DNA from: a virus | Virus record (IMG/VR): IMGVR_UViG_3300024259_000075 | Coordinates: 1 to 41,630 of that record | Strand: one strand, 5' to 3' | DNA length: 41,630 nt | Position numbers and translations under genes: made by a program | The notes under the pieces: model-generated | Seen by the model: only the letters and a program-made list of their open reading frames with translations | What the model was told of the DNA's origin: nothing | Databases searched by the model: none | In this document: positions 817-17,685 of the stretch, piece by piece | Numbering within the stretch: position 1 is the stretch's first letter | Layout: the number at the start of each line of letters is the position of its first letter

Positions 817-1001
817 TATTCCACCAATTTAGCATTAACATGTTGTATCATATATTCTTTAGCGAACTGTATAGCTTCATATTTATCATGAAATCTATAT
901 TGTTCACCATTATTAGCAGTGAATACAAATTTATCATATACGGCATCATAACTAATACATTCTTTTGAATACATCTTTGTCATTTTATACAATCTTTCCA
1001 T
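816..1001 (-). CDS. Hypothetical protein (61 aa)
   Basis: A small protein with a central stretch VYDKFVFTANNGEQYRFHDK and alternating hydrophobic residues, perhaps a small beta-alpha fold. Its start overlaps the end of the phosphoesterase gene by 17 bases. No family is recognised. Confidence 0.7.
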   Translation of the reverse strand: MERLYKMTKMYSKECISYDAVYDKFVFTANNGEQYRFHDKYEAIQFAKEYMIQHVNAKLVE

Positions 1002-1986
1002 TTATTATTCTTTTATTATCCACAACAAAACTATTATCATTTTCTCTAGTTACTATGGCAAAGCCGTGACTCCACTGGTTAATGGGCATATAATCAGGAT
1101 TCATATAGCATAAACAGCCGATACTCCAACACCCTATGAAGTGCTCATTTAATGTTTTTGAAGTATGTTGAGATACTCTATGAAAATGCCCACACATTGA
1201 AGTAGTTTGCGTTTTTAAATGTAAACCTCTTGCCGGATTAACTCCACCAGCTCCGCCGCCCGCAGTCTCATCACCGTGTAACACATTCAATTTACCTATT
1301 TTTATAATCCTCTTATTTTGAATCCAAGTTATTCCTAATTCATGCAAACCAAGCAATACCTCAATCCTAAATTCTTCTATACCAAAAAAATCAGGAGCTT
1401 TATCTAATAAATGATGTTGAAACCTCCTTTCATGATTACCTTCTTTATATATAATCTTAGTATTGGGAAAATTATTCTTTAATGCCATCAGAAAATGCTT
1501 TATTGCTTGCAGCTCGCTTCCAAAATCTCTAAACTCAGGGTCTTTATTAAAACGGCTTAATGCATAACAATCCCATATATCACCATTCAATACAATTGTA
1601 TCTAATTCAACATTATTGTTTTTTAGATAATTAAAACAAGCTGTTATTGCTATAGTATCGTGAAAAGGGATATGTACATCGCTAATAACTAATATTTTTT
1701 TACCAGCTATTATAAATGGCTTCCATGCCACATTCCATTCTTTAGGTAAACTATAAGGATTCTCTTTCGTAGGTTCTGGTAACTTAAAACGTCTATCAAC
1801 TAGTTTATCTCTATTTGCCTTGCCTATTCTGCCTTTATAATACCTTATAACAGATCTAACAGCTTCTTTATTTTTAAAATGCTTATGTTTATCTTTATAA
1901 ATTAATTTTGACAATGTATTTGACTTCATATCTGGATATTTCTCCAAATATTCCTTAATGATATTTGTGCTTATGTTTTTATTCAT
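985..1986 (-). CDS. Calcineurin-like metallophosphoesterase
   Basis: The metal-binding motifs of the calcineurin-like superfamily are all present in order: SDVH (residues 102-105), NGD (134-136), GNHE (183-186), a HGDE near residue 240 and GHFH further on. The enzyme probably uses two metal ions to hydrolyse a phosphoester; the substrate cannot be told and could be nucleic acid, a nucleotide or a phosphoprotein. The first 70 residues are basic and helical (KYPDMKSNTLSKLI) and may be a helix-turn-helix DNA-binding extension, as seen in other phage phosphoesterases. It lies at the end of the PrkA/SpoVR operon, two bases after the metalloprotease-like gene. Reversing phosphorylation by the upstream PrkA proteins is an attractive but untested role. 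Confidence 0.9.
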   Translation of the reverse strand: MNKNISTNIIKEYLEKYPDMKSNTLSKLIYKDKHKHFKNKEAVRSVIRYYKGRIGKANRDKLVDRRFKLPEPTKENPYSLPKEWNVAWKPFIIAGKKILVISDVHIPFHDTIAITACFNYLKNNNVELDTIVLNGDIWDCYALSRFNKDPEFRDFGSELQAIKHFLMALKNNFPNTKIIYKEGNHERRFQHHLLDKAPDFFGIEEFRIEVLLGLHELGITWIQNKRIIKIGKLNVLHGDETAGGGAGGVNPARGLHLKTQTTSMCGHFHRVSQHTSKTLNEHFIGCWSIGCLCYMNPDYMPINQWSHGFAIVTRENDNSFVVDNKRIINGKIV

Positions 1987-1987
1987 A

Positions 1988-2347
1988 TTAATACCCTGTA
2001 GTTACATTTAATAATTTAGCTATTTTAATTTCATTATATCTCGCTTCCGGCTCTAATGTTTTCCATCGGAATAGTGCTAAAAATGAATAACCAATTAAAC
2101 CATATCTTTTAAATTGTTTCATGTGCGTGTATTCATGTACTATAGTAGGTATCATTGCTTTTTTAACATGCTTATAACATGCAATATATATATTATGTGG
2201 TTTTGTTATTTTAAAATACCCTAATATACCTTTATCAGTATTGCATTTCTTATTATCATAATATAGATTAAAATTCCATTTATCTGGCATAACTTGCTGC
2301 CAAATCTTTTGATATTCAATTAATTCTTTACCTAATACCTCTTCCAT
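1988..2347 (-). CDS. HExxH zinc metalloprotease-like protein (119 aa)
   Basis: The protein has the zincin motif HEYTH at residues 71-75, preceded by a hydrophobic helix start (AMIPTIV), and a downstream LEPEA (98-102) that could supply the third zinc ligand as in gluzincins. At 119 residues it is a minimal zincin, resembling small phage proteins often annotated as SprT- or ImmA-like metallopeptidases. No signal peptide is visible, so it should act in the cytoplasm. Context, a second protease-like gene in the same operon as a ClpP homologue, suggests protein processing. Peptidase activity is inferred from the motif only. Confidence 0.75.
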   Translation of the reverse strand: MEEVLGKELIEYQKIWQQVMPDKWNFNLYYDNKKCNTDKGILGYFKITKPHNIYIACYKHVKKAMIPTIVHEYTHMKQFKRYGLIGYSFLALFRWKTLEPEARYNEIKIAKLLNVTTGY

Positions 2348-2476: not shown

Positions 2477-4513
2477 TTACTTCTTAAGCTCTAAAAAATA
2501 TAATAATATCTTTTTTGCGGTTTTATTATTATATTCAAATTTATTAATTAGATTATCGATAGCAAATTTAATACGTTTTTGAATTGATTTATCAAATGTA
2601 CTAAATTTATCTGTATCATAGCATTTAAGAGCATTAATAAAAGAATCTTGATTTAATTCATCTATTGCATTTTTTTCCAAATTTCTTTTATAGAGATTAA
2701 AAAGCTTTTGAAATTGTTTACTTTTCTTAATATCTCCATGTACTGTTTTAGTCGTAAAAACATTTAATTGCTCCTTTCTAAATAGTTCAATATTAGTATC
2801 AATTACACTTGTTAGTTTTTTTTCTACTTTGATTAATTCGTTTTCCTTATTTTTAATTTTTTTCTTAGTAAAGACGCATTCGATATCTTTTTCATTGCCC
2901 TCCAATGTTAAACAAAATAAGTAATTTAATATATCGTTAACAATAATCCTTTCATTTGAAGAAAATAAACTTTGTTTTACCTCATTGGATATTATATAGT
3001 TATAATATTTCACTAAATCAACTATAGTAGTTAAAGTATAATTTAGATCATCAATATCCCAAAAAAATGTCTCAAATTTTTTAATATCGATAATATCATT
3101 ATTATCTTGACTACTCGTATAAATGAATTCATTCAATAAATTTAAAGCATATCTACCACTAATACCGGAAACACCATCATCAGATGACATTTTAATATTT
3201 TTAATAGCCTCATCTGTTAATTTCTTTTTGTCTTCCTCTTTTAACCATTCAGGTATTTTATCATTTAAAATATCAGTTTTTATAATTAGTCTATTATTAC
3301 CGCATTGCTCATAGCAATTAACAGGATTGATATAATTATCAAACTCTACTGTAGTTTTAGATGACATCCTAGAGATAGTAATCAATCTAGCATATAAAGC
3401 CAATATGTGAGGCATAAATTTATCATTTAATGAATCTTTATAATGATCTTGATAGATCTCTATTTCAGTTTTATAATTCATATTATAAGGTATTGATATA
3501 ATATTAATACGATCCATGAAAGATTCTTTTTCTTTGATCTCTTTTAAATCGTCTTCATTAGCAACAGCCATATAAACAACATTTAAATATTCTTCATTAT
3601 GATGTACTTTGTTTATTTCTTCTGTTACTAAATTATGGATGTTATTAAAATTATCTACATTACTACCTTTTAAATCCATTATTGCATAAATTCCATTATT
3701 AACAGATGCAAAATCAGAATAGATAATATCAATATTAATACCAGGGAAATATTTATATAATAATTCACTATTTTTTTTATCATTATAGTATTGCATTGAT
3801 TTATACTTATTAGGCATTACAATTGATAACCCATTGCTAATATGTCGGTCTAATTCATTTTTTTCTACATATATATTATTATATATCGATTTAATCGACC
3901 TATTTTTTAATTGATAATCATATATTTTTTTACATATATGGCAAGGTTCACTATGAATCATCCATTCATAACTTTTATTATGATACATATTCTCAATAAA
4001 TCTTTTAGAATTTATAGAACGTTCTAAAATTTCCATTCTATGTTCTTTAGGTAATATTGATACAGGATGACAATGATAAGGACATGTATAATATACATCT
4101 TCTTCTAATTTCCATGTAATCTGATACAATGCCCCTTCTTCTTTTTGATTGTAATTTTCTAAAGCATTATAAAAATTTTTAAGAAATGTACTTTTACCGC
4201 TGCCAGGTTTACCCTCAAAGATAGTTATTTTTTTTGAATTCTTTAATGAATAAATATCCTTCACAAATTTTTCAAAATCAATAAGAAATTTATAACTTGC
4301 AAAAAACTTCTTTTCTTGATTAAATTCAAACATTAAAGCCATATTTTCAGTTTTGTAATATTCTACCGCATCTAATAGAAATTTTCTAAAATCTCTAAAA
4401 TATTGTATAGGATAATCAAAAGCTTTTATTAAAAAATTCTCAAAAGTGATTTGATTCTTGTTTGTAGCTTTATAATTTGTAACAAAGTTATTGAAAAATT
4501 TTAAATTATTCAT
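2477..4513 (-). CDS. Divergent PrkA-type AAA+ protein (second copy)
   Basis: PrkA proteins combine an AAA+ ATPase with a C-terminal region likened to protein kinases, and work with YeaH/YhbH and SpoVR in bacterial starvation or sporulation responses. Visible here are a Walker A motif GKPGSGKS (residues 101-108), the PrkA-type segment GALYQITW (127-134) followed by CPYHCHP, a CHIC pair (191-194), a Walker B-like strand AIMDL (277-281) and the PrkA signature FMDRINIISIPY (332-343). SGISGRYALNLLNE near residue 450 corresponds to the conserved GLSxRF segment. The length (678 aa) is close to bacterial PrkA (about 640). The C-terminal third is lysine-rich and poorly recognisable, so kinase activity is doubtful. 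The start overlaps the SpoVR stop (TAATG). It is much more AT-rich than the copy at 7825-9867, suggesting a separate history rather than a recent duplication. Confidence 0.88.
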   Translation of the reverse strand: MNNLKFFNNFVTNYKATNKNQITFENFLIKAFDYPIQYFRDFRKFLLDAVEYYKTENMALMFEFNQEKKFFASYKFLIDFEKFVKDIYSLKNSKKITIFEGKPGSGKSTFLKNFYNALENYNQKEEGALYQITWKLEEDVYYTCPYHCHPVSILPKEHRMEILERSINSKRFIENMYHNKSYEWMIHSEPCHICKKIYDYQLKNRSIKSIYNNIYVEKNELDRHISNGLSIVMPNKYKSMQYYNDKKNSELLYKYFPGINIDIIYSDFASVNNGIYAIMDLKGSNVDNFNNIHNLVTEEINKVHHNEEYLNVVYMAVANEDDLKEIKEKESFMDRINIISIPYNMNYKTEIEIYQDHYKDSLNDKFMPHILALYARLITISRMSSKTTVEFDNYINPVNCYEQCGNNRLIIKTDILNDKIPEWLKEEDKKKLTDEAIKNIKMSSDDGVSGISGRYALNLLNEFIYTSSQDNNDIIDIKKFETFFWDIDDLNYTLTTIVDLVKYYNYIISNEVKQSLFSSNERIIVNDILNYLFCLTLEGNEKDIECVFTKKKIKNKENELIKVEKKLTSVIDTNIELFRKEQLNVFTTKTVHGDIKKSKQFQKLFNLYKRNLEKNAIDELNQDSFINALKCYDTDKFSTFDKSIQKRIKFAIDNLINKFEYNNKTAKKILLYFLELKK

Positions 4514-6036
4514 TATTTTTTTTCCTCTCTATAATACTTTGCAAACGTTTTATGGTCATCATCATAAAATTTTGTTTCCAATTCAATATTACTATCATTA
4601 CCCCATAACCATAATATATTTCTCAATACTTGTTGTACATATGGTTGATACAATTCTACACCTTCCCATTTATGTTTCAATTCTAATTTTTTATCATTAA
4701 CTTTTTTTATACACATTAACGGTGGATGTGTTAATGTATCCAATAGCATTTGCTTATAATCAGCAGCTTTTTTAGATTTAATATAATATTCTTTATATTG
4801 TCCATATTGTACTAATCTAGTTCCTATTACTGCTAGGTTGTATTCTTCTACGAAATCTTGAGTTATAAAAGAATTAATAAACATGGAGTCATTGCAATTT
4901 ATCATAATATCTCTTATATACTGCCATCCTGTATCTTTATGTTTATCATAATATTTACGATTTTCTTTATCTAATATACGGTCAAATTCTATACTATATT
5001 TACCTTTATTAGAATTGTTTTTTATATGTTCAAATAATCTCATTCCTATAGCATAAGGATTTAAACCTACTTTAGGTACTGATGTTACAAAAGAATTAAC
5101 TCTAGCATAATCAGTTTCAAATCCAACTATATGTGGATCAGCTCTAAATAATTCATCATGTATTAAGGAAGCCCAGCCCTCGTTCATTATTTTAGTACGT
5201 CTTTGTGGTTCAAAATATAAAGCAGTTTCTTTAACAATACTGATAACTGTTAACATCCATTCATTACCTTTTTTATTCAAAAATGGAGAATTATCCATTA
5301 ACCAACTTAATATATCAGGATCTGTATTTTTATAATTGTCTTTATAGTCTTCATACAAGGTAATAAAATCTGGAAAATTAGAAATAACTTCATTTTTAAA
5401 TTCAATATCTGTCATCTTGTTAAATTTATTTAGCCATTTTGTATACATTATTTCTGAATAATTGATTTCAGTTTGTATAAAAATATCAAAAAAGAAATCT
5501 GTGCAATTTTTAACTTTATGTTTTTGTTGATCATAATATGTTGGAAATAATATATTATCTAAGCTTCTAGAGAACTCTATTACATAATCAACCCATCTAC
5601 CATGTTTAATACGCAATTCATTAATTGTTCTTTTATTAGCTAGTGATTGACCAACAAAATCATCATTCCATGTTTTTTCATAAAATTTATTAGATCTGAA
5701 AAAATCTTGGTGTCCTAATACATGATATGCAATCATACAATTAAGCCAGTCTGGATTATCTTGAAGATAAAATGACATTCCAGGACGTGAATTAATAACA
5801 GTCTCATATGCTGAATGTGGATATACTTCATATTGTTTAATATCTGAGAATGTTCTAACATCATCTAACCAGAAATGATACATAGTGGGAATCATAACTT
5901 TACTGGATAATTCTGCAAAGTCTTTACCGCTTACAATATATTCCAATGTAGCACAATCTACATTAAGACCAAAATCTATTGCACGTTGTTTACAATCTTC
6001 AAATATTTGTTTGGTATGTTGATTAATTAATTGCAT
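4513..6036 (-). CDS. SpoVR family protein
   Basis: The family signature is clear: YETVINSRPGMSFYLQDN (residues 77-94) followed by MIAYHVLGHQDFF (101-113), with histidines 105 and 109. SpoVR is required for spore cortex formation in Bacillus, and its enterobacterial homologue YcgB belongs to the stationary-phase regulon. Its biochemistry is unresolved, but it co-occurs with PrkA and YeaH/YhbH. The length of 507 aa matches the family. I chose the ATG at 6036 rather than an upstream one at 6066 because GGAGG sits seven bases before it and it overlaps the TAA of the VWA gene. Translational coupling to both neighbours argues for defined stoichiometry in one complex or pathway. Confidence 0.93.
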   Translation of the reverse strand: MQLINQHTKQIFEDCKQRAIDFGLNVDCATLEYIVSGKDFAELSSKVMIPTMYHFWLDDVRTFSDIKQYEVYPHSAYETVINSRPGMSFYLQDNPDWLNCMIAYHVLGHQDFFRSNKFYEKTWNDDFVGQSLANKRTINELRIKHGRWVDYVIEFSRSLDNILFPTYYDQQKHKVKNCTDFFFDIFIQTEINYSEIMYTKWLNKFNKMTDIEFKNEVISNFPDFITLYEDYKDNYKNTDPDILSWLMDNSPFLNKKGNEWMLTVISIVKETALYFEPQRRTKIMNEGWASLIHDELFRADPHIVGFETDYARVNSFVTSVPKVGLNPYAIGMRLFEHIKNNSNKGKYSIEFDRILDKENRKYYDKHKDTGWQYIRDIMINCNDSMFINSFITQDFVEEYNLAVIGTRLVQYGQYKEYYIKSKKAADYKQMLLDTLTHPPLMCIKKVNDKKLELKHKWEGVELYQPYVQQVLRNILWLWGNDSNIELETKFYDDDHKTFAKYYREEKK

Positions 6037-7223
6037 TACACCACCTCCAATAAATCTTTGATACATTCAATTAATTCATTATCCTGCGCATCTTCGAATA
6101 ATTCTGTTAATATTAAATTGTTTGGATTATTATTAGCCTTGTAATTATCTAAAAAATTAAGATATTCAGGGATTAATTTACTATACCTACTTGTTGACTG
6201 TACACAAGTAAACCCCATCCTGTTAGAATATCTTAGCATTTCAGTGATTGAATCTACTTTTTCAACTTCATCTGTATTACTCCAATCATCACCATCACTA
6301 CCCATAAATACATATATATTCTTATCTTTTTCTAAACTTTCATTATACACTATTTCATTAACTAACTTCACAGCACTTGTAACTTCTGTACCACCGGCAA
6401 CTTGTTTGCGATAATATGTCGTAAAATTGTTAACTTCTATAGCTTCTGTATCGTGTAAAATAAAGCGAGTTTCTACATTACCTTTGTAAGCATACATAAG
6501 CCAAAAATATAATAAAGAATGTAAAGTTACTACTATTTCTGTTCTTTTACCGTACATAGAGCCTGAATAATCTCTAATAAAAAACACGACTGCTTCGTTT
6601 TCATAATCAGCCTCACGACTTAAACAACGATATTGAAATGATCGTGGATCAATTAATAAATCTTTCATATTAAATTTATTTTTGTGATCTATTTTACCTA
6701 ATCCAATATTTGTTTTTATTATATTTTTCATAGTACGTTTTTTGTCAAGGATTTGACCTGTACCTTTATTACTATCTGTCAAATCATACTTGAATTTTAT
6801 TAAAGAACGCTTTTTCCCTTTGTCTTGTAGTTCCGGTAATTCAAATTTTTCTGTTAAATATTTACCTATATTATACGCATTTTCGGATTCTTCACCATGA
6901 TCACCTTCACCTTCACCACCTTGACCATCTTGTCCTTCACCTTCACCTTCTTGATCTACTGGCACATGTCCTAATATATCCCCTTCTTCACTATTTGAAT
7001 CTGCTGTTCCACCTTCTTCCCCTTCTTCTTCATTTTTTGGATTATTATAATGATAAAATTTTTCTTCTTCCACGGATGGTACAATAATAGGTGCAATACC
7101 TGGCTTAATAATTTGACCTAATTTAATTTTTTTAGAAAATCCATCATCTTCACGCTGTTGATCTCGTTCCATGAGTTCTTCAAGAGTTCTTAAGCGTTTA
7201 CTAGGTTGTAATATATCACTCAT
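6036..7223 (-). CDS. YeaH/YhbH-type von Willebrand factor A protein (DUF444)
   Basis: The C-terminal half is a VWA domain with a MIDAS metal site: DYSGSM (residues 218-223), the conserved threonine in GGTEVTSA (277-284) and SDGDDW (309-314), all characteristic of the YeaH/YhbH family encoded next to PrkA in bacteria. VWA proteins typically partner AAA+ ATPases by presenting substrates, as in the MoxR/VWA and chelatase systems. Residues 62-113 form a Glu/Gly-rich acidic linker. The bacterial family also has this kind of loose N-terminal region. At 395 aa it is slightly shorter than E. coli YeaH (about 427). It lies four bases after the ClpP-like gene and overlaps SpoVR by one base, so it is the link between the ATPase and the other partners. 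Confidence 0.93.
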   Translation of the reverse strand: MSDILQPSKRLRTLEELMERDQQREDDGFSKKIKLGQIIKPGIAPIIVPSVEEEKFYHYNNPKNEEEGEEGGTADSNSEEGDILGHVPVDQEGEGEGQDGQGGEGEGDHGEESENAYNIGKYLTEKFELPELQDKGKKRSLIKFKYDLTDSNKGTGQILDKKRTMKNIIKTNIGLGKIDHKNKFNMKDLLIDPRSFQYRCLSREADYENEAVVFFIRDYSGSMYGKRTEIVVTLHSLLYFWLMYAYKGNVETRFILHDTEAIEVNNFTTYYRKQVAGGTEVTSAVKLVNEIVYNESLEKDKNIYVFMGSDGDDWSNTDEVEKVDSITEMLRYSNRMGFTCVQSTSRYSKLIPEYLNFLDNYKANNNPNNLILTELFEDAQDNELIECIKDLLEVV

Positions 7224-7227
7224 ATAA

Positions 7228-7794
7228 TTACTCCTTAGTTTTTGATTTTTTTTCTAATGCTTCCATTTTCTTAGCTCTACTTTCTAGACGGCTAATAACC
7301 TCATCTGAATCCATCCACATATCTTTACCATTTATGACTTCTGTTATTTCTTGTGAAGTTAAGAAAAATCTATAATGCTTTCTATATAATTTTTTATAAT
7401 GACGATCTAAAAAATCTATATGAGCTTTCATTTCATGACCTTTGCCATATGTACCACTAGAAACAAAATGTATCATAAATTCACTATCAGGATAAATTTC
7501 TATTTCATGCCCTGCAAGTAAAATAAAAGTTGCCATACTTGCTGCCATTCCATTTAATATTGATATTACTTTCCCTTTGCAAGATATCATTTCATTAATT
7601 AGTTGTACTCCTGTAACACAATAACCACCACTACAATTAATATGAATGTTAATAACATCATTCGGTGTTGCTGTTCTAAGAGTTGTAAAAATATCTATAA
7701 AATCTTCTGGTTCACCAATGTGAAAAGGTAAATATATATTAATCTCTTGAACATTATGTGTTTTAATATTTACTTGATTATTTTCTGTTTCCAT
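7228..7794 (-). CDS. ClpP-like serine peptidase
   Basis: The Clp peptidase fold is recognisable from the N-terminal INIYLPF and the strand INIHINCSGGYCVTG (residues 48-62), which contains the oxyanion GG. The catalytic serine is in NGMAASMATF (Ser86) and the histidine in FMIH (His109). Asp158 in GKDMWMDSDE aligns plausibly with the ClpP aspartate, so the triad looks intact. The length (188 aa) is close to bacterial ClpP (about 195-205), but the usual YGLID ending is missing. Phage ClpP homologues usually sit with the capsid genes as prohead proteases. This one lies between a PrkA ATPase and its VWA partner, 30 bases after the former, suggesting that it serves as the peptidase of this AAA+ system. 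Confidence 0.9.
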   Translation of the reverse strand: METENNQVNIKTHNVQEINIYLPFHIGEPEDFIDIFTTLRTATPNDVINIHINCSGGYCVTGVQLINEMISCKGKVISILNGMAASMATFILLAGHEIEIYPDSEFMIHFVSSGTYGKGHEMKAHIDFLDRHYKKLYRKHYRFFLTSQEITEVINGKDMWMDSDEVISRLESRAKKMEALEKKSKTKE

Positions 7795-7824
7795 AATTAT
7801 ATCTTTCTTTTTTATTATTATATT

Positions 7825-9867
7825 TTACTCGTCATCTTCTGGTGCGCAAAAATATTCAATTGTTCTCTCTGCGCAAACTTTACAATAGCCTAATTTATCT
7901 ATCATAGTTTTAAGTATACGATTATATAATTCTTTGTTTTCGTCATTTGTGCGATTTGCTAAAGCTCCTACCAATGACTCCGCTCCAGCAATATCAGATT
8001 TTAAACGTACTTCTGTAATAGCTTTAACTAGAGTGTGATTATCCATAAAGTCATATTCTGGATCAGTTAAAATCTTTCTTCCGTATATGCGCCTTATCGT
8101 AGTTCTAAAGCTTTCTTTTTGTTCTTGCGTTTTTAACCCCATACGTTCTTCAACATTATTGATATATTTTTCATCAATTTTAATTGCTTTCACTTCACCT
8201 GTGATCTGGTCTTTATATCTCCACATTTTATCGGCTGCCATATCTTCTTCTGAAATAGCTATAATATTATTAACATATTTATTAACCTCTGATTTTATAG
8301 CCTGTGGATCATCTAAGAATGCATTGAATAGTGATGTTTTAATATTCTCGCGATATAACATTTTCGCGATGTTAATATCTTCGAGATATTTGGTTTTTAA
8401 TTTTGCATCTTTAATATAATCTAATACAATCTGTTTCAAGGCAGTAAAAGAATCATGAGCGAACATACAGCATCCATCTTGCGTGTCTGATTTTTCTAAT
8501 AGCAACTGTATTGCGCGCCCAAGATTCCTATGGCCAATTCCGCGCTGGCCAAAACGCTTCGTCACATCTGTTTCTTCCTGGAGGTCGTCTATTAATTCTG
8601 TTAATGTTTTAATACCTTTATCTCCGGCAATCTCGCCTGCTGCCAATTTGCGCGTTTCTAATGGTGTTAATTTTTTCGACGCGGGCAGACGAGAAAGAAC
8701 AACGGCATTTGATATTGCATAGTTTAAATTAGGATCGATATGTAATGCCTTACCATCTACCGTTGTTTTTTTATTACCGATTGAATATTCTGTTAATTCC
8801 TGTTGCAATTTGTAATTGGTATTATGGCCGTGATATGCAATTCTACAACGGTCAACAATTGGCGCTTCTTCCTCTGAGCCGACAAAGCGATTAAATTCCG
8901 CGTTATTAGATGTAGCTATAATTAAAGTATCTAAAGGCCATTTAAAACCATCTATTTCAATTGTTCTATTTTGTATGACGCCAAGATATACCTGAACAAG
9001 GTCTTTTTTGTTTTTAAATAATTCATCTGAAAAATGTATACCGCATGAGCCAACACGTGCAAGCGCGCCAATTCTTAAATCAATACGGTATGGGTTATTG
9101 GTATCTGTAAGATTCATTAAACGCTGTATTGATTCTTCGCCGAGTAGATCTTTTGCGGAAGATGTTATTTTGTCTCTAGCGGAATATTTACCTGTTACAG
9201 TTCCCATTGTAGATGATATGCGAATCGGTTTGATATCGATATGATTTTTAACCACTTCATCTATATTACCATAATATTCTTTAAGATCATCTAAAATATA
9301 TTCTGAACATGCACCTAATGGTCGGTAATTGCAATACATATTATCAATTTCTTTATTCGTGAATTTATATTTTTTAAGATGTTTAATAACATTTTCTTTT
9401 TCAAATAAATTCATCAATAACAGCATTGGATCTTCAAATGTTTGCGATTCAATAAAATCTAAATTACCATATAAATTTAACTCTTTCAGATTGGTAAATC
9501 GAAAAGTATATTTGCGATTTGGCTCTTGTGATAAAAACTGGCGATACTTTTCACAGAGATATTCTACAAAAAACGTTTTACCGTTACCGGGTTCGCCAAC
9601 TAATACATAAGCCATTTCTTTTGATGATCCACCTTCTGCTGCATCTTTAACAAATGATACAAAAGAATTAATTTCATCATATAAGCCTATAAGGTGATAT
9701 TTATCTTCGCGAAATATAGAATAGTCGTAAATCGTTTTTCCATTAACTTTGACTTTTTTAAATGCATCTTTCCGATCTAGAATCATACGACTAACAGCTT
9801 GAAAGACATTTTCAAATTGCCTTGTACCTTTTTTTAATTCCTGTAGATGTTTTTTAAAAATTTCCAT
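7825..9867 (-). CDS. PrkA-type AAA+ ATPase / putative serine kinase (first copy)
   Basis: This is the more canonical PrkA of the two. The PrkA-specific start GLYDEINSFVSFVKDAAEG (residues 61-79) precedes a Walker A GEPGNGKT (91-98). Later come RPLGACSEYILDDL, the RIDLRIGALARVGSCGIHFSDE core and the sensor-like IIATSNNAEFNRF, followed by VDRCRIAYH. The C-terminal part (MWRYKDQITGE... and FRTTIRRIYGR) matches the bacterial PrkA C-terminal domain compared with kinases. Length is 680 aa versus about 640 in E. coli YeaG. It has an excellent ribosome site (AGGAGG five bases before ATG) and starts the PrkA-ClpP-VWA-SpoVR-PrkA series. Codons are richer in GC (GCG, CGC) than in the genes downstream. 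Confidence 0.93.
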   Translation of the reverse strand: MEIFKKHLQELKKGTRQFENVFQAVSRMILDRKDAFKKVKVNGKTIYDYSIFREDKYHLIGLYDEINSFVSFVKDAAEGGSSKEMAYVLVGEPGNGKTFFVEYLCEKYRQFLSQEPNRKYTFRFTNLKELNLYGNLDFIESQTFEDPMLLLMNLFEKENVIKHLKKYKFTNKEIDNMYCNYRPLGACSEYILDDLKEYYGNIDEVVKNHIDIKPIRISSTMGTVTGKYSARDKITSSAKDLLGEESIQRLMNLTDTNNPYRIDLRIGALARVGSCGIHFSDELFKNKKDLVQVYLGVIQNRTIEIDGFKWPLDTLIIATSNNAEFNRFVGSEEEAPIVDRCRIAYHGHNTNYKLQQELTEYSIGNKKTTVDGKALHIDPNLNYAISNAVVLSRLPASKKLTPLETRKLAAGEIAGDKGIKTLTELIDDLQEETDVTKRFGQRGIGHRNLGRAIQLLLEKSDTQDGCCMFAHDSFTALKQIVLDYIKDAKLKTKYLEDINIAKMLYRENIKTSLFNAFLDDPQAIKSEVNKYVNNIIAISEEDMAADKMWRYKDQITGEVKAIKIDEKYINNVEERMGLKTQEQKESFRTTIRRIYGRKILTDPEYDFMDNHTLVKAITEVRLKSDIAGAESLVGALANRTNDENKELYNRILKTMIDKLGYCKVCAERTIEYFCAPEDDE

Positions 9868-10891: not shown

Positions 10892-13234
10892 TTATAGAGT
10901 TTTTCTTATAAGTTCTTTATCTACTAAGTCTATAGTGTTAAGAGAAATACTAAGATTATGGTCATTGTGTAAAAAAATGTATAGTGAATTAGCATTATTT
11001 CCGCACCATACCAAGCCCCTTTTATTTTTGTATGATGCCTTTTCTGTTGCCAATTTTGTTATTAAACCAGTCTTAATATAATTATTAATCATCTGTATTG
11101 ATGCCTTAAAATCAAGACCATTGCGCAATATATATTTTCGCGCGGCTGTCGTAATCCACACTAATTCATCATCCGCAAATCTCATATTATTCACAGCCTC
11201 TTCAAATACTTCTTCGATTTCTGCGGCGCGTTCAACTTCATAATCTGATTTACTGCGCGCTATTTTTGTATGGCCTAATACATTATTATATTGTTGTGAA
11301 TCTGCGCAAAAAGCCGATAGTATTTTTTTATCAAAATCGCCAAAGCGAGAGACTTCATTATCCAGTTTATTGGCTTGCAGAATATCGATAATATCCGCGA
11401 TAATATTCAAACGGTATTCATTAATATATTGCGTGATATCCGTTAACCAATCCGCGGAGTATTTTGGTTTACCGATGTAAATAAAGTAACAACGTTCCGC
11501 AATATCTTTTTCAACGGTGGCCGAATTAGCCGTCAAAACATATGTGAATCTATTTAATATTGTTAATTCTCCCTGACCGTAGGCTGGACGCCCTGTGACA
11601 AAATCAGTTGTAATTAATTCAGCTAATTCCGGGCTTGTAAATTCTCCGGTTATATTATCAAAGCAGATGATTTTCTTTTTCGATGCTCCTGTAGATAATA
11701 ATCGTTTATTAACCTCATCAATATTATTTTTCAATGAATTCACATTAACATTAATACAGCCGCTTGACGCCATATCTTTATGATTACCATATAATTTTGC
11801 GATCATATGCGGAATAGTTGTTTTACCGCTACCTTGTCCTGCCACTGAATCTATAATCCAACCTGGACGCGGCACACCATATTCATAATATATTGGCGCG
11901 GCAAATAAAGTTTGCAATAAGACTTTATCTTCAACTGTATTAGGATTAAAATAGTTAATTAATTTATTAAAATGTTCATGCTTTTGCGTAGCTTCCGGCA
12001 TGATTACTGGCGCGTAAAAAACATTCTCACGTTTTGGATAATCCGGCAAATATGATATTGATTCAAATGCTTTCGCATTCTTCTTTATGTATTGTAAAAA
12101 CTCGCTTTTTGTAACTTTACCATCGCCTTCATTCTGCCAAACAACAGGCTGATTTGTTTTTTCACCTATCCATGCAAACAAACTTGCGACATCGCGAATA
12201 TAATATATTTCTTGTTTTGCGCGATCCCAATCAAATAATATATCATTAACGATATAAGGATATCCCAAAAGACGTTTGGAAAATTCTTTATATATTTCGT
12301 TGATAGTTAATGGCATTTTGATATTGCGTGCGTTCCCTCGCGCATCAATAGATTCGGTAATAATATAATTTGATAATGCTGTTTTATTTTCATTGCGTGC
12401 AATTTGAATTACTTCTTTTGGTGCTACCCATTTATTTGTTTTTTTGCAAATCGCGACTAATTTTTCAACCGTACCGCCATCGCGAAAGAACTCTACCGCG
12501 TCACCTTTTTGTTTATCGCTAATAGGTTCTAGTATTTTAATAGCTTTTGCGGAGTGTGCGAGCAACCGCGCGATTTCTATTGCATGTTCACGTCCGGACT
12601 TGTCGTTATCCGGTATAATTACTACATTTTTATCAAGAAAATATTTCGCATAATAATCTTTAAGATTGCCCGCACCGAGTGCAAAAGTAGTAGCAGCAAG
12701 ATTTTGTGTCATTAACGCTTCCGCTGCCTTTTCACCTTCACATATAAAGATAGATTCTGTTTTCTCAAACACTGGTAAATTATAGGGAACTAATTCGGTA
12801 TTATGTAAGCCGAAATGCCATTTACCTTTTTCCATGCGCGCTTGCATAAAATCTTTAGGCTCATAGCGGATTGTTTTATGTATTGGATTACCGTCTTTAT
12901 CTGTGTATATATATTCGTGTTCTATTGGTTTATGTGTATCATCTGTTTTTTGAAGCTCAACAGCTTTTAAATTAAATTTTTCACCGATCCATTCTGATGC
13001 TTCTAATAGATCGCACCCTTGAACCTTTTGAACTAATTGTAATACGTTACCGCCTTTTTTACTATCGCCATGATCACAAAATGTTTTATCAGTATACGCC
13101 ACTGACTTACTATTTGTACCACCGCGCCATGTCGCTGCGCTGCGCTTATCCGTGATTTTAATACCAAGGGAATTGGCAACATCAAGGATATTTACGCATT
13201 GACATATATCATTGAAATTATAAAATTTTCTCAT
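10892..13234 (-). CDS. TOPRIM primase - helicase fusion
   Basis: The N-terminus carries a CHC2-like zinc region (CDHGDSKKGGNVLQLVQ, residues 53-69) that recognises DNA during priming. A TOPRIM domain follows, with the catalytic glutamate in CEGEKAAEA (165-173) and the metal-binding DNDKSG (209-214). The C-terminal half is a helicase-like NTPase with Walker A GQGSGKT (466-472), Walker B IICFDN (522-527) and a sensor-like VLTANS. At 780 aa it is a full primase-helicase of the type that replaces separate DnaG and DnaB in many phages. It would unwind and prime the phage fork. No DNA polymerase gene is in this window, so that function is encoded elsewhere or taken from the host. It is the last gene of the replication operon. 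Confidence 0.9.
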   Translation of the reverse strand: MRKFYNFNDICQCVNILDVANSLGIKITDKRSAATWRGGTNSKSVAYTDKTFCDHGDSKKGGNVLQLVQKVQGCDLLEASEWIGEKFNLKAVELQKTDDTHKPIEHEYIYTDKDGNPIHKTIRYEPKDFMQARMEKGKWHFGLHNTELVPYNLPVFEKTESIFICEGEKAAEALMTQNLAATTFALGAGNLKDYYAKYFLDKNVVIIPDNDKSGREHAIEIARLLAHSAKAIKILEPISDKQKGDAVEFFRDGGTVEKLVAICKKTNKWVAPKEVIQIARNENKTALSNYIITESIDARGNARNIKMPLTINEIYKEFSKRLLGYPYIVNDILFDWDRAKQEIYYIRDVASLFAWIGEKTNQPVVWQNEGDGKVTKSEFLQYIKKNAKAFESISYLPDYPKRENVFYAPVIMPEATQKHEHFNKLINYFNPNTVEDKVLLQTLFAAPIYYEYGVPRPGWIIDSVAGQGSGKTTIPHMIAKLYGNHKDMASSGCINVNVNSLKNNIDEVNKRLLSTGASKKKIICFDNITGEFTSPELAELITTDFVTGRPAYGQGELTILNRFTYVLTANSATVEKDIAERCYFIYIGKPKYSADWLTDITQYINEYRLNIIADIIDILQANKLDNEVSRFGDFDKKILSAFCADSQQYNNVLGHTKIARSKSDYEVERAAEIEEVFEEAVNNMRFADDELVWITTAARKYILRNGLDFKASIQMINNYIKTGLITKLATEKASYKNKRGLVWCGNNANSLYIFLHNDHNLSISLNTIDLVDKELIRKTL

Positions 13235-16669: not shown

Positions 16670-17218
16670 TTAATTTAAATAGTTTTTTACAATTGCATCA
16701 GCTAATATTAATAATTCGTTTACGCTTCCATTATTATCAAATTCAATGTCTACTTTGAAATTTTTAATTTGCTTTTCTGATTTGATTTTTTTTAATCCAT
16801 TATTCCTATTTAGTTTTATTATTACCGCGTTAGCTTTTTTTAAATGATCTATTTCATTTTGAAATCTGACATCACTTATAATGTAATGTCTATCAAAATT
16901 AGTTATATTATTAATTAAATACTCAACAAATACATCAGGATTTATTGTTCTAAGTTCCTGGCCTACTTTAATCCAAATATCTCGAGGAGACATTTTATAT
17001 TTTGGTATTTCTATTTCTTTATCAATTGGATTATATTCATAGTAATCCATATTTTTAATTAATGGAAACATTTCCTGGCATAATGATTTTAATTTAGCAG
17101 CAAATGATTTTATTTCAATTATATGTCTTCTTGTAGAAATTAGATTATTTGAATATTGTATATAATTAGCCAGTGTGTTTTTGCCTGTTTGCCGTTCGCC
17201 TGTTATACCTATAATCAT
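16670..17218 (-). CDS. Deoxynucleoside monophosphate kinase
   Basis: The P-loop GITGERQTGKNTLA (residues 4-17) and the later block SPRDIWIKVGQELR followed by ISDVRFQNE match the dNMP kinases of T4 gp1 type. These convert dNMPs from host DNA breakdown and synthesis into dNDPs for phage DNA. Its 182 aa are somewhat shorter than T4 gp1 (about 240) but normal for smaller phage homologues. The gene overlaps the HAD phosphatase gene by four bases. Confidence 0.88.
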   Translation of the reverse strand: MIIGITGERQTGKNTLANYIQYSNNLISTRRHIIEIKSFAAKLKSLCQEMFPLIKNMDYYEYNPIDKEIEIPKYKMSPRDIWIKVGQELRTINPDVFVEYLINNITNFDRHYIISDVRFQNEIDHLKKANAVIIKLNRNNGLKKIKSEKQIKNFKVDIEFDNNGSVNELLILADAIVKNYLN

Positions 17219-17685
17219 TTGTTGTTTCCTTTTTTTAATCTAACTTGAAAAGATGTAATACCTAATTCATTATACATAATACAATTATCGCGTCTGTCAT
17301 CTAATGCAACTATAATATTATATTTAGGTAATATATTATTAATTAGAATATCTCGCTTTACTTCGTGATCAGGTCTATCATCGCCATCTGTGCGATAAAA
17401 ATATTTAGGCGGGAAATACCTCCGGAAATTAAAAAACGTATTGATCCATTTTTCAGTTTCTAAACTTGATTTTTCATTTCTCGCGCTTAAAAAAATAATG
17501 CGATATTTAGATGTAAATAAATCAACTAAATGCAATGAGAAATCAGTAGGACTAAAAGTTGAAATATAATCTATGAACCAGCTATAATCCGCATTTGCTA
17601 TTTCATCTTTATATTTTTTGAATAGTTTCTTTTCTGGTGTTTGTGAAATAGTTTTATCTATATCTAATAAAATTGCATCTAGCAT
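17215..17685 (-). CDS. HAD-family phosphatase, polynucleotide 3'-phosphatase-like
   Basis: HAD motifs appear in order: LLDIDKT (residues 6-12, the catalytic DxD), FLSAR (66-70), a lysine in the HEVKRD region and ALDDRRDN with its acidic pair. The insert YFYRTDGDDRPDHEVKRD resembles the phosphatase half of phage polynucleotide kinase (PseT), where DDR and H/K residues line the site. No kinase domain is attached. It may repair 3'-phosphate ends or dephosphorylate nucleotides alongside the dNMP kinase downstream. Confidence 0.82.
   Translation of the reverse strand: MLDAILLDIDKTISQTPEKKLFKKYKDEIANADYSWFIDYISTFSPTDFSLHLVDLFTSKYRIIFLSARNEKSSLETEKWINTFFNFRRYFPPKYFYRTDGDDRPDHEVKRDILINNILPKYNIIVALDDRRDNCIMYNELGITSFQVRLKKGNNK

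Follow-up and report, generated by a model that had tools for sequence, protein, structure and literature searches.

The genes at positions 2477-9867 of the IMG/VR virus record IMGVR_UViG_3300024259_000075 raise the question of which cellular system this phage has taken up and what that system could do during infection. The window analyzed here is the whole virus record (41,630 bases). A preliminary description of its sequence had read the block as the PrkA-YeaH/YhbH-SpoVR stress trio of E. coli (yeaG-yeaH and ycgB) and Bacillus (prkA, yhbH and spoVR), accompanied by a ClpP-like peptidase and a second PrkA, and as lacking precedent in phages. The five overlapping or closely spaced genes of that description were confirmed by the coordinates of the open reading frames (ORFs), which all lie on the minus strand, are uninterrupted, and overlap or stand 4-30 bases apart. 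The block was found, instead, to represent a different, two-PrkA bacterial subtype, and the capture of this subtype by phages, together with a phage-specific link to ClpP-like peptidases, is what is new here. In the direction of transcription, the genes are:

7825-9867, minus strand: PrkA1, AAA+ ATPase of a distinct PrkA subfamily (Pfam PF06798 and PF08298; identity to bacterial operons; motif table)
7228-7794, minus strand: phage-type ClpP-like serine peptidase of 188 residues, between PrkA1 and the VWA gene (CLP_protease; phrog_1827)
6036-7223, minus strand: DUF444 (YeaH/YhbH-type) VWA protein with a complete metal-ion-dependent adhesion site (MIDAS) (Pfam DUF444; NCBIfam NF003712)
4513-6066, minus strand: SpoVR family protein with HxxGH and NEG motifs (Pfam SpoVR; conservation in alignment)
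2477-4513, minus strand: PrkA2, a PrkA-family paralogue (Pfam PrkA C-terminal; identity to the PrkA2 of bacteria and of phage L100)

A two-PrkA operon subtype shared with bacteria

When bacterial genomes were searched with PrkA2, a distinct four-gene operon, PrkA1-VWA-SpoVR-PrkA2, came to light in Geobacter, Geomonas, a Desulfohalobiaceae bacterium, several Bacteroidota and Stygiobacter (loci L180-L191 and L199). The order of the four genes was identical in 11 dereplicated cellular loci and is also that of the window, where the ClpP-like gene is inserted between PrkA1 and the VWA gene. Identities between the window and the bacterial operons amounted to 56-65% for PrkA1, 45-49% for the VWA protein, 42-47% for SpoVR and 28-31% for PrkA2 (27-31% when the PrkA2 of phage L100 is included). 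PrkA1 matched the four-gene subtype at 839-1008 bits and canonical phage PrkAs at about 91 bits or less, and in a tree of VWA proteins the window, phage L100 and all four-gene operons (13 rows) fell on one side of a branch with a support of 100. The proteins of the four-gene operon share descent apart from the canonical trio. The bacterial operons have the same four families, order and subfamilies as the window, but they are chromosomal, have no ClpP-like gene nearby and encode a PrkA2 of 752-775 residues versus 678 in the window.

Each of the 11 cellular genomes checked held exactly two PrkA genes, so the four-gene operon is their native PrkA system. It occurred in 5 of 296 genomes sampled from the phylum Bacteroidota and in 16 of 247 sampled from the phylum Desulfobacterota; one genome of the latter sample showed another two-PrkA layout, with the two genes side by side in opposite directions (L271:2-3552). 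In the literature, no name or study was found for a PrkA1-DUF444-SpoVR-PrkA2 operon. A similar arrangement is reported from haloarchaea, where two PrkA genes lie side by side in a cluster that also contains DUF444 and SpoVR (PMC3102087); compared by description and not by sequence, it resembles the window in having two PrkAs, one DUF444 protein and one SpoVR but differs in that the PrkA genes of the window stand at both ends.

The family placements of the PrkA, ClpP, DUF444 and SpoVR proteins held in profile searches, in which Pfam families were judged against curated cut-offs (25 bits for both PrkA C-terminal and AAA_PrkA). PrkA1 scored 113.3 bits for PrkA C-terminal and 47.5 bits for AAA_PrkA. 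PrkA2 scored 98.8 bits for PrkA C-terminal; its AAA part was missed by AAA_PrkA, and its residues 90-384 aligned to the solved PrkA 9xip (E=3e-12). The ClpP-like protein scored 65.4 bits for CLP_protease and matched phrog_1827 at 2e-57. The canonical trio comprises the same three families as the window but has one PrkA instead of two, and the VWA and SpoVR proteins of the window score far below the equivalog cut-offs of YhbH and SpoVR. The VWA protein reached 118.7 bits for DUF444 (cut-off 27) and 455.5 bits for NCBIfam NF003712 (cut-off 421), versus 116.4 bits for the YhbH equivalog TIGR02877 (cut-off 468). Similarly, the SpoVR protein reached 171.5 bits for PF04293 (cut-off 27), stayed below the cut-off of 27.6 for SpoVR_C (19.7 bits), and scored 88.8 bits for the SpoVR equivalog PRK11767 (NF008737; cut-off 679).

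The two PrkAs differ at their presumed catalytic sites. PrkA1 has Walker A (GEPGNGKT, from residue 91), Walker B (HFSDE, 278-282), sensor 1 (ATSN, 318-321) and an arginine finger (DRC, 339-341); across its subfamily GEPGNGKT, a Walker B of the form HFxDE, sensor 1 and the arginine finger are invariant, and the CPxH/CxxC insert motif seen in other PrkAs is absent from PrkA1. PrkA2 has a Walker A (GKPGSGKST), a CPYH...CHIC motif (CPxx...CxxC) and a DRI arginine finger, and it carries Met-Asp at the position of the Walker B Asp-Glu of PrkA1, as do all its aligned relatives. Because PrkA1 retains the full set of AAA+ motifs and PrkA2 has Met-Asp at Walker B, PrkA1 is the probable active motor subunit and PrkA2 a putative hydrolysis-impaired partner. 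The preliminary description had taken all MIDAS, Walker and Clp residues to be intact, which is right for the MIDAS, the ClpP triad and the Walker sites of PrkA1 and wrong for the Walker B of PrkA2, since Met-Asp replaces Asp-Glu there. The MIDAS (DxSxS-T-D; D218/S220/S222/T279/D310) is complete, with residues invariant in 10 proteins. In SpoVR, H115, H119 and E296 of the HxxGH and NEG motifs are invariant in 38 aligned proteins, and these three residues could hold a metal.

The trio in other phages and the acquisition of the block

The view that such a system has no precedent in phages was refuted by isolated Thermus phages and many uncultured phages with complete sets. By annotation or profile, VWA, SpoVR and PrkA genes are all present in the Thermus phages phiYS40 (YSP_056, 057 and 059), phiLo, MN1 and Lalka8, as well as in the huge uncultured phages LR756511, LR745206 and LR756504; trio members are also known from Thermus phage TMA and from the jumbo phage RsoM2USA, annotated with SpoVR and PrkA (PMC8504454). 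The Thermus phages differ from the window in having one PrkA of the canonical subfamily, the order VWA-SpoVR-PrkA, and identities of 15-25% to the window proteins. YSP_058 was considered as a second PrkA of phiYS40 and ruled out, as it does not align to the PrkA family. A scan of IMG/VR with a DUF444 alignment returned 285 contigs, and in most of the 80 loci kept the three genes were close together. Co-occurrence in viral genomes was seen in dozens of IMG/VR contigs for the trio and in one IMG/VR contig besides the window for the four-gene subtype.

In these other phages, median pairwise ratios of nonsynonymous to synonymous substitution rates (dN/dS) were 0.061 for PrkA, 0.071 for the VWA protein and 0.058 for SpoVR, which agrees with the earlier suggestion that selection has kept such genes: the phage trio genes are under strong purifying selection. 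The tree of VWA proteins contained 3 switches between viral and cellular rows over 92 rows, which speaks for long-standing phage lineages and not for stray host DNA. The trio is established but uncharacterized phage cargo. Lambdoid contigs with yeaH at the contig edge (L065-L091) were dismissed as host DNA at prophage borders; these prophage contigs in IMG/VR start inside host yeaH (around 547-1056), and the yeaG-yeaH genes with which Enterobacter phage LAU1 starts in GenBank are likewise host DNA at a prophage border.

Several further features of these loci were observed. Inteins interrupt some phage SpoVR proteins at the invariant NEG motif and some phage PrkAs just before the Walker B region (L048:11028-13862, L031:11008-13833, L042:11171-13969, L008:11500-13407 and L054:6492-9743; confirmed by Pfam for L048 only). 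In phages with the order VWA-SpoVR-PrkA (L016, L022, L024, L036 and L088) a conserved gene adjoins PrkA, the copy in L022 being GroEL-like (phrog_5725, 2e-16), and several phages of this order have a helicase and a NUDIX-like gene upstream. Many canonical trio phages have three small conserved genes, for a zinc-ribbon protein and two unknowns, ahead of PrkA (for example L048:7273-7623, L049:6972-7286 and L075:5609-6187).

The ClpP-like protein, whose Ser-His-Asp triad was placed by motif at Ser86, His109 and Asp158, has counterparts beside the trio in other phages. Of 48 dereplicated viral groups, 21 had a ClpP-like gene no more than 3 kb from the trio, against none of 46 cellular groups (Fisher P 6e-8), among loci that were picked by similarity searches retaining the best 80 and with a cellular set rich in Planctomycetota. 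The 19 ClpP-like genes present in representative viral loci all mapped to this 3-kb neighborhood, and the other 356 kb contained none. Their position varies among phages (after SpoVR, before the VWA gene, or between PrkA1 and the VWA gene), and these three arrangements in different phages suggest that the peptidase was recruited repeatedly. The median dN/dS of the phage ClpP-like genes was 0.065.

As for the origin of the block, its closest relatives are chromosomal. IMG/VR yielded no close relatives when it was scanned with SpoVR or PrkA1 singly, and a mixed PrkA alignment offered no stretch conserved enough for searching. The only other IMG/VR contig found with PrkA1 was L100, a 56-kb myophage that encodes a tail sheath and a baseplate and whose major head protein differs from that of the window. 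The four block genes, in the same order, are all that the two phages have in common; no ClpP-like gene was found within the L100 locus examined. The PrkA1 of L100 was nested in a Bacteroidota clade (100/100), and that of the window fell outside this clade. A single phage ancestor for the two operons was rejected by the approximately unbiased test of a joint clade (p=0.0046), a value to be read with caution given the very long branch of the window. Apparently, the two-PrkA bacterial subtype was captured by phages twice. Altogether, these observations suggest that phages repeatedly adopted the cellular PrkA-VWA-SpoVR machine.

The block is accessory in the phage, because it is absent from a sister phage (L092) that shares the terminase, portal, major head protein, primase and RecT with the window. 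The primases of the two phages matched at 435 bits (10892-13234 in the window, L277:6663-8984 in the sister phage). Between primase and terminase the sister phage carries methylase and HNH genes and no PrkA. The interval matching the PrkA block (L277:13104-15263) encodes an HNH-AP2 protein, an N6/N4 methylase and a transposase-like helix-turn-helix protein.

The block lies between phage genes with replication genes upstream, as originally described: primase, ERCC4-like nuclease, exonuclease and RecT genes are found upstream and a metallophosphoesterase gene downstream, while terminase, portal, major head and tape-measure genes are located farther away. A terminal repeat was searched for in the 41,630-base window and not found. 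The neighboring features are:

10892-13234, minus strand: phage primase (Toprim), upstream flank (phrog_239, 3.8e-22)
1988-2347, minus strand: 119-residue protein with a zincin-like HEYTH motif, read from the sequence, directly downstream of PrkA2 and a possible member of the block; no Pfam family matched
985-1986, minus strand: phage-type metallophosphoesterase, downstream flank (phrog_221, 2.5e-41)

Elsewhere in the window (16670-17685), a deoxynucleoside monophosphate kinase adjoins a phosphatase domain of the polynucleotide-kinase-phosphatase type. The identity of the block as a known anti-phage defense system was ruled out, as no PADLOC model matched; the only hit was mad8 (E 0.009, 13.6 bits), over the P-loop.

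Possible function of the captured genes

Our preferred reading, to which we assign a probability of about one half, is that the block encodes an AAA+/VWA machine for protein remodelling, accessory in the phage and acquired from a bacterium (PrkA1-VWA-SpoVR-PrkA2), to which the gene of a phage-type ClpP-like peptidase has been added. It builds on the demonstrated family membership, gene order, subtype, accessory position and purifying selection in other phages, and ATP-driven remodelling of the AAA+/VWA type, acting with SpoVR, would best fit all of the parts. PrkA1 would be the ATP-hydrolysing ring subunit, and PrkA2, with a Walker A and no Walker B glutamate, could be a nucleotide-binding partner or regulatory subunit, comparable to Mg-chelatase (BchI/BchD), which combines active and inactive AAA+ subunits. 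The VWA protein would bind its target through the MIDAS, SpoVR would be the client or effector, its His/His/Glu residues possibly holding a metal, and proteins unfolded by the machine may be degraded by the ClpP-like peptidase. Most likely, the phage would in this way supplement or override the host's own copy, so that a starved or slow-growing host retains a workable proteome and metabolism while it is infected.

Models for such an activity exist. In the MoxR AAA+/VWA pairs (RavA-ViaA, NorQ-NorD and CbbQ-CbbO) and in Mg-chelatase, the gene of an AAA+ motor stands beside that of a MIDAS protein, as in the window, where both belong to the same operon but are separated by the ClpP-like gene. The pairs NorQ/NorD and CbbQ/CbbO remodel or activate a partner enzyme (PMC9976466). 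B. anthracis PrkA, for its part, is classed with the AAA+ proteins and assembles into oligomers with ATP (PMC13001217). Several points nevertheless weigh against our reading. The known pairs and Mg-chelatase have no counterpart of SpoVR, and PrkA has been assigned to AAA+ clade III and not to the MoxR clade (PMC13001217), so the analogy is functional and not by descent; the block may work like these systems without being a member of them. The literature yielded no biochemistry for the four-gene subtype or for any phage PrkA-VWA-SpoVR set; two AlphaFold2 models of SpoVR (pLDDT 71 and 79) found no PDB match at E 0.001 or better; and the putative PrkA1-PrkA2 complex, the predicted inactivity of PrkA2 and the candidate SpoVR metal site are all read from sequence.

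The main competing explanations concern proteolysis and host physiology. Several phage lineages may have coupled the PrkA-VWA-SpoVR machine with their own ClpP-like peptidase into a new phage AAA+ protease or remodelling complex, with a heteromeric PrkA1/PrkA2 motor in the window, although we regard this as improbable on balance. A phage-built AAA+ protease, in which the PrkA ring unfolds proteins and feeds them to the peptidase, the VWA protein and SpoVR choose the substrates, and host or defense proteins are destroyed as by ClpXP, is in our judgment unlikely too. The proximity of ClpP-like genes to the trio in viral and not in cellular groups, their confinement to its vicinity in representative loci, their three arrangements and low dN/dS, and the AAA+ pore loop that a model shows for PrkA (PMC13001217) all speak for it. 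On the other side, over half of the viral trio groups have no ClpP-like gene nearby, the locus of the unrelated L100 shows none, the cellular comparison is weighted towards Planctomycetota, and by itself B. anthracis PrkA showed hardly any protease activity in vitro (PMC13001217). A role in host starvation, dormancy or competition with the host complex, as initially proposed, is possible, and the phage copy could mimic the host PrkA system and either maintain or end the starved state of the cell through signalling by phosphorylation rather than remodelling. E. coli yeaG mutants form no metabolically inactive subpopulation under nitrogen starvation, a condition in which YeaG cooperates with YeaH and the recovery phenotype is also seen in yeaH mutants (PMC4664914); B. 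anthracis requires prkA for sporulation and osmotic stress (PMC13001217); and spoVR was reportedly the most abundant sporulation-related viral gene in viromes of an oxygen minimum zone (PMC8940887). Purified B. anthracis PrkA, however, showed no kinase activity, and the kinase label is disputed between this work (PMC13001217) and the report that YeaG needs both its AAA+ part and its kinase-like part (PMC4664914). Additionally, no gene for sporulation or starvation turned up next to the block, and the relatives of the subtype belong to Desulfobacterota and Bacteroidota and not to endospore formers. We consider such signalling conceivable but less likely than not.

A contribution to virion assembly, with the ClpP-like protein as head maturation protease and the AAA+/VWA proteins as assembly chaperones, would accord with the frequent role of phage ClpP-like proteins as head proteases, with the position of the trio between head genes and TerL in Thermus phage Lalka8, and with the GroEL-like gene adjoining the trio in some phages. 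It is very unlikely for the window, where about 23 kb separate the block, set among replication genes, from the major head gene, the operon derives from cells, the ClpP-like protein scored 85.1 bits against the head-maturation model NF045542 (cut-off 120), and the sister phage has homologous portal and head genes and no ClpP-like ORF in its partial contig. Finally, the chromosomal nature of the closest relatives and the lack of an available close relative of the window genome could point to host DNA misassembled into a phage contig, or to a recent passenger without use. This is most improbable: G+C content at third codon positions in the block (0.14-0.24) fits that in the rest of the phage (0.11-0.33) and so argues against a chimera of assembly, the ClpP gene within the block is of phage type, the same operon is present in an unrelated phage, and all frames are open, with active-site residues kept despite long divergence.

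Significance for the PrkA-VWA-SpoVR families

The stress proteins PrkA, YeaH/YhbH and SpoVR are conserved, and phages that carry the trio under purifying selection, with inteins at the most conserved sites, are small natural systems in which to find its biochemical role. A ClpP-like neighbor that recurs in phages and was missing from the bacterial loci examined directs attention to protein unfolding or degradation, activities that can be tested. The two-PrkA subtype suggests that an active and an inactive subunit may together make up the motor.

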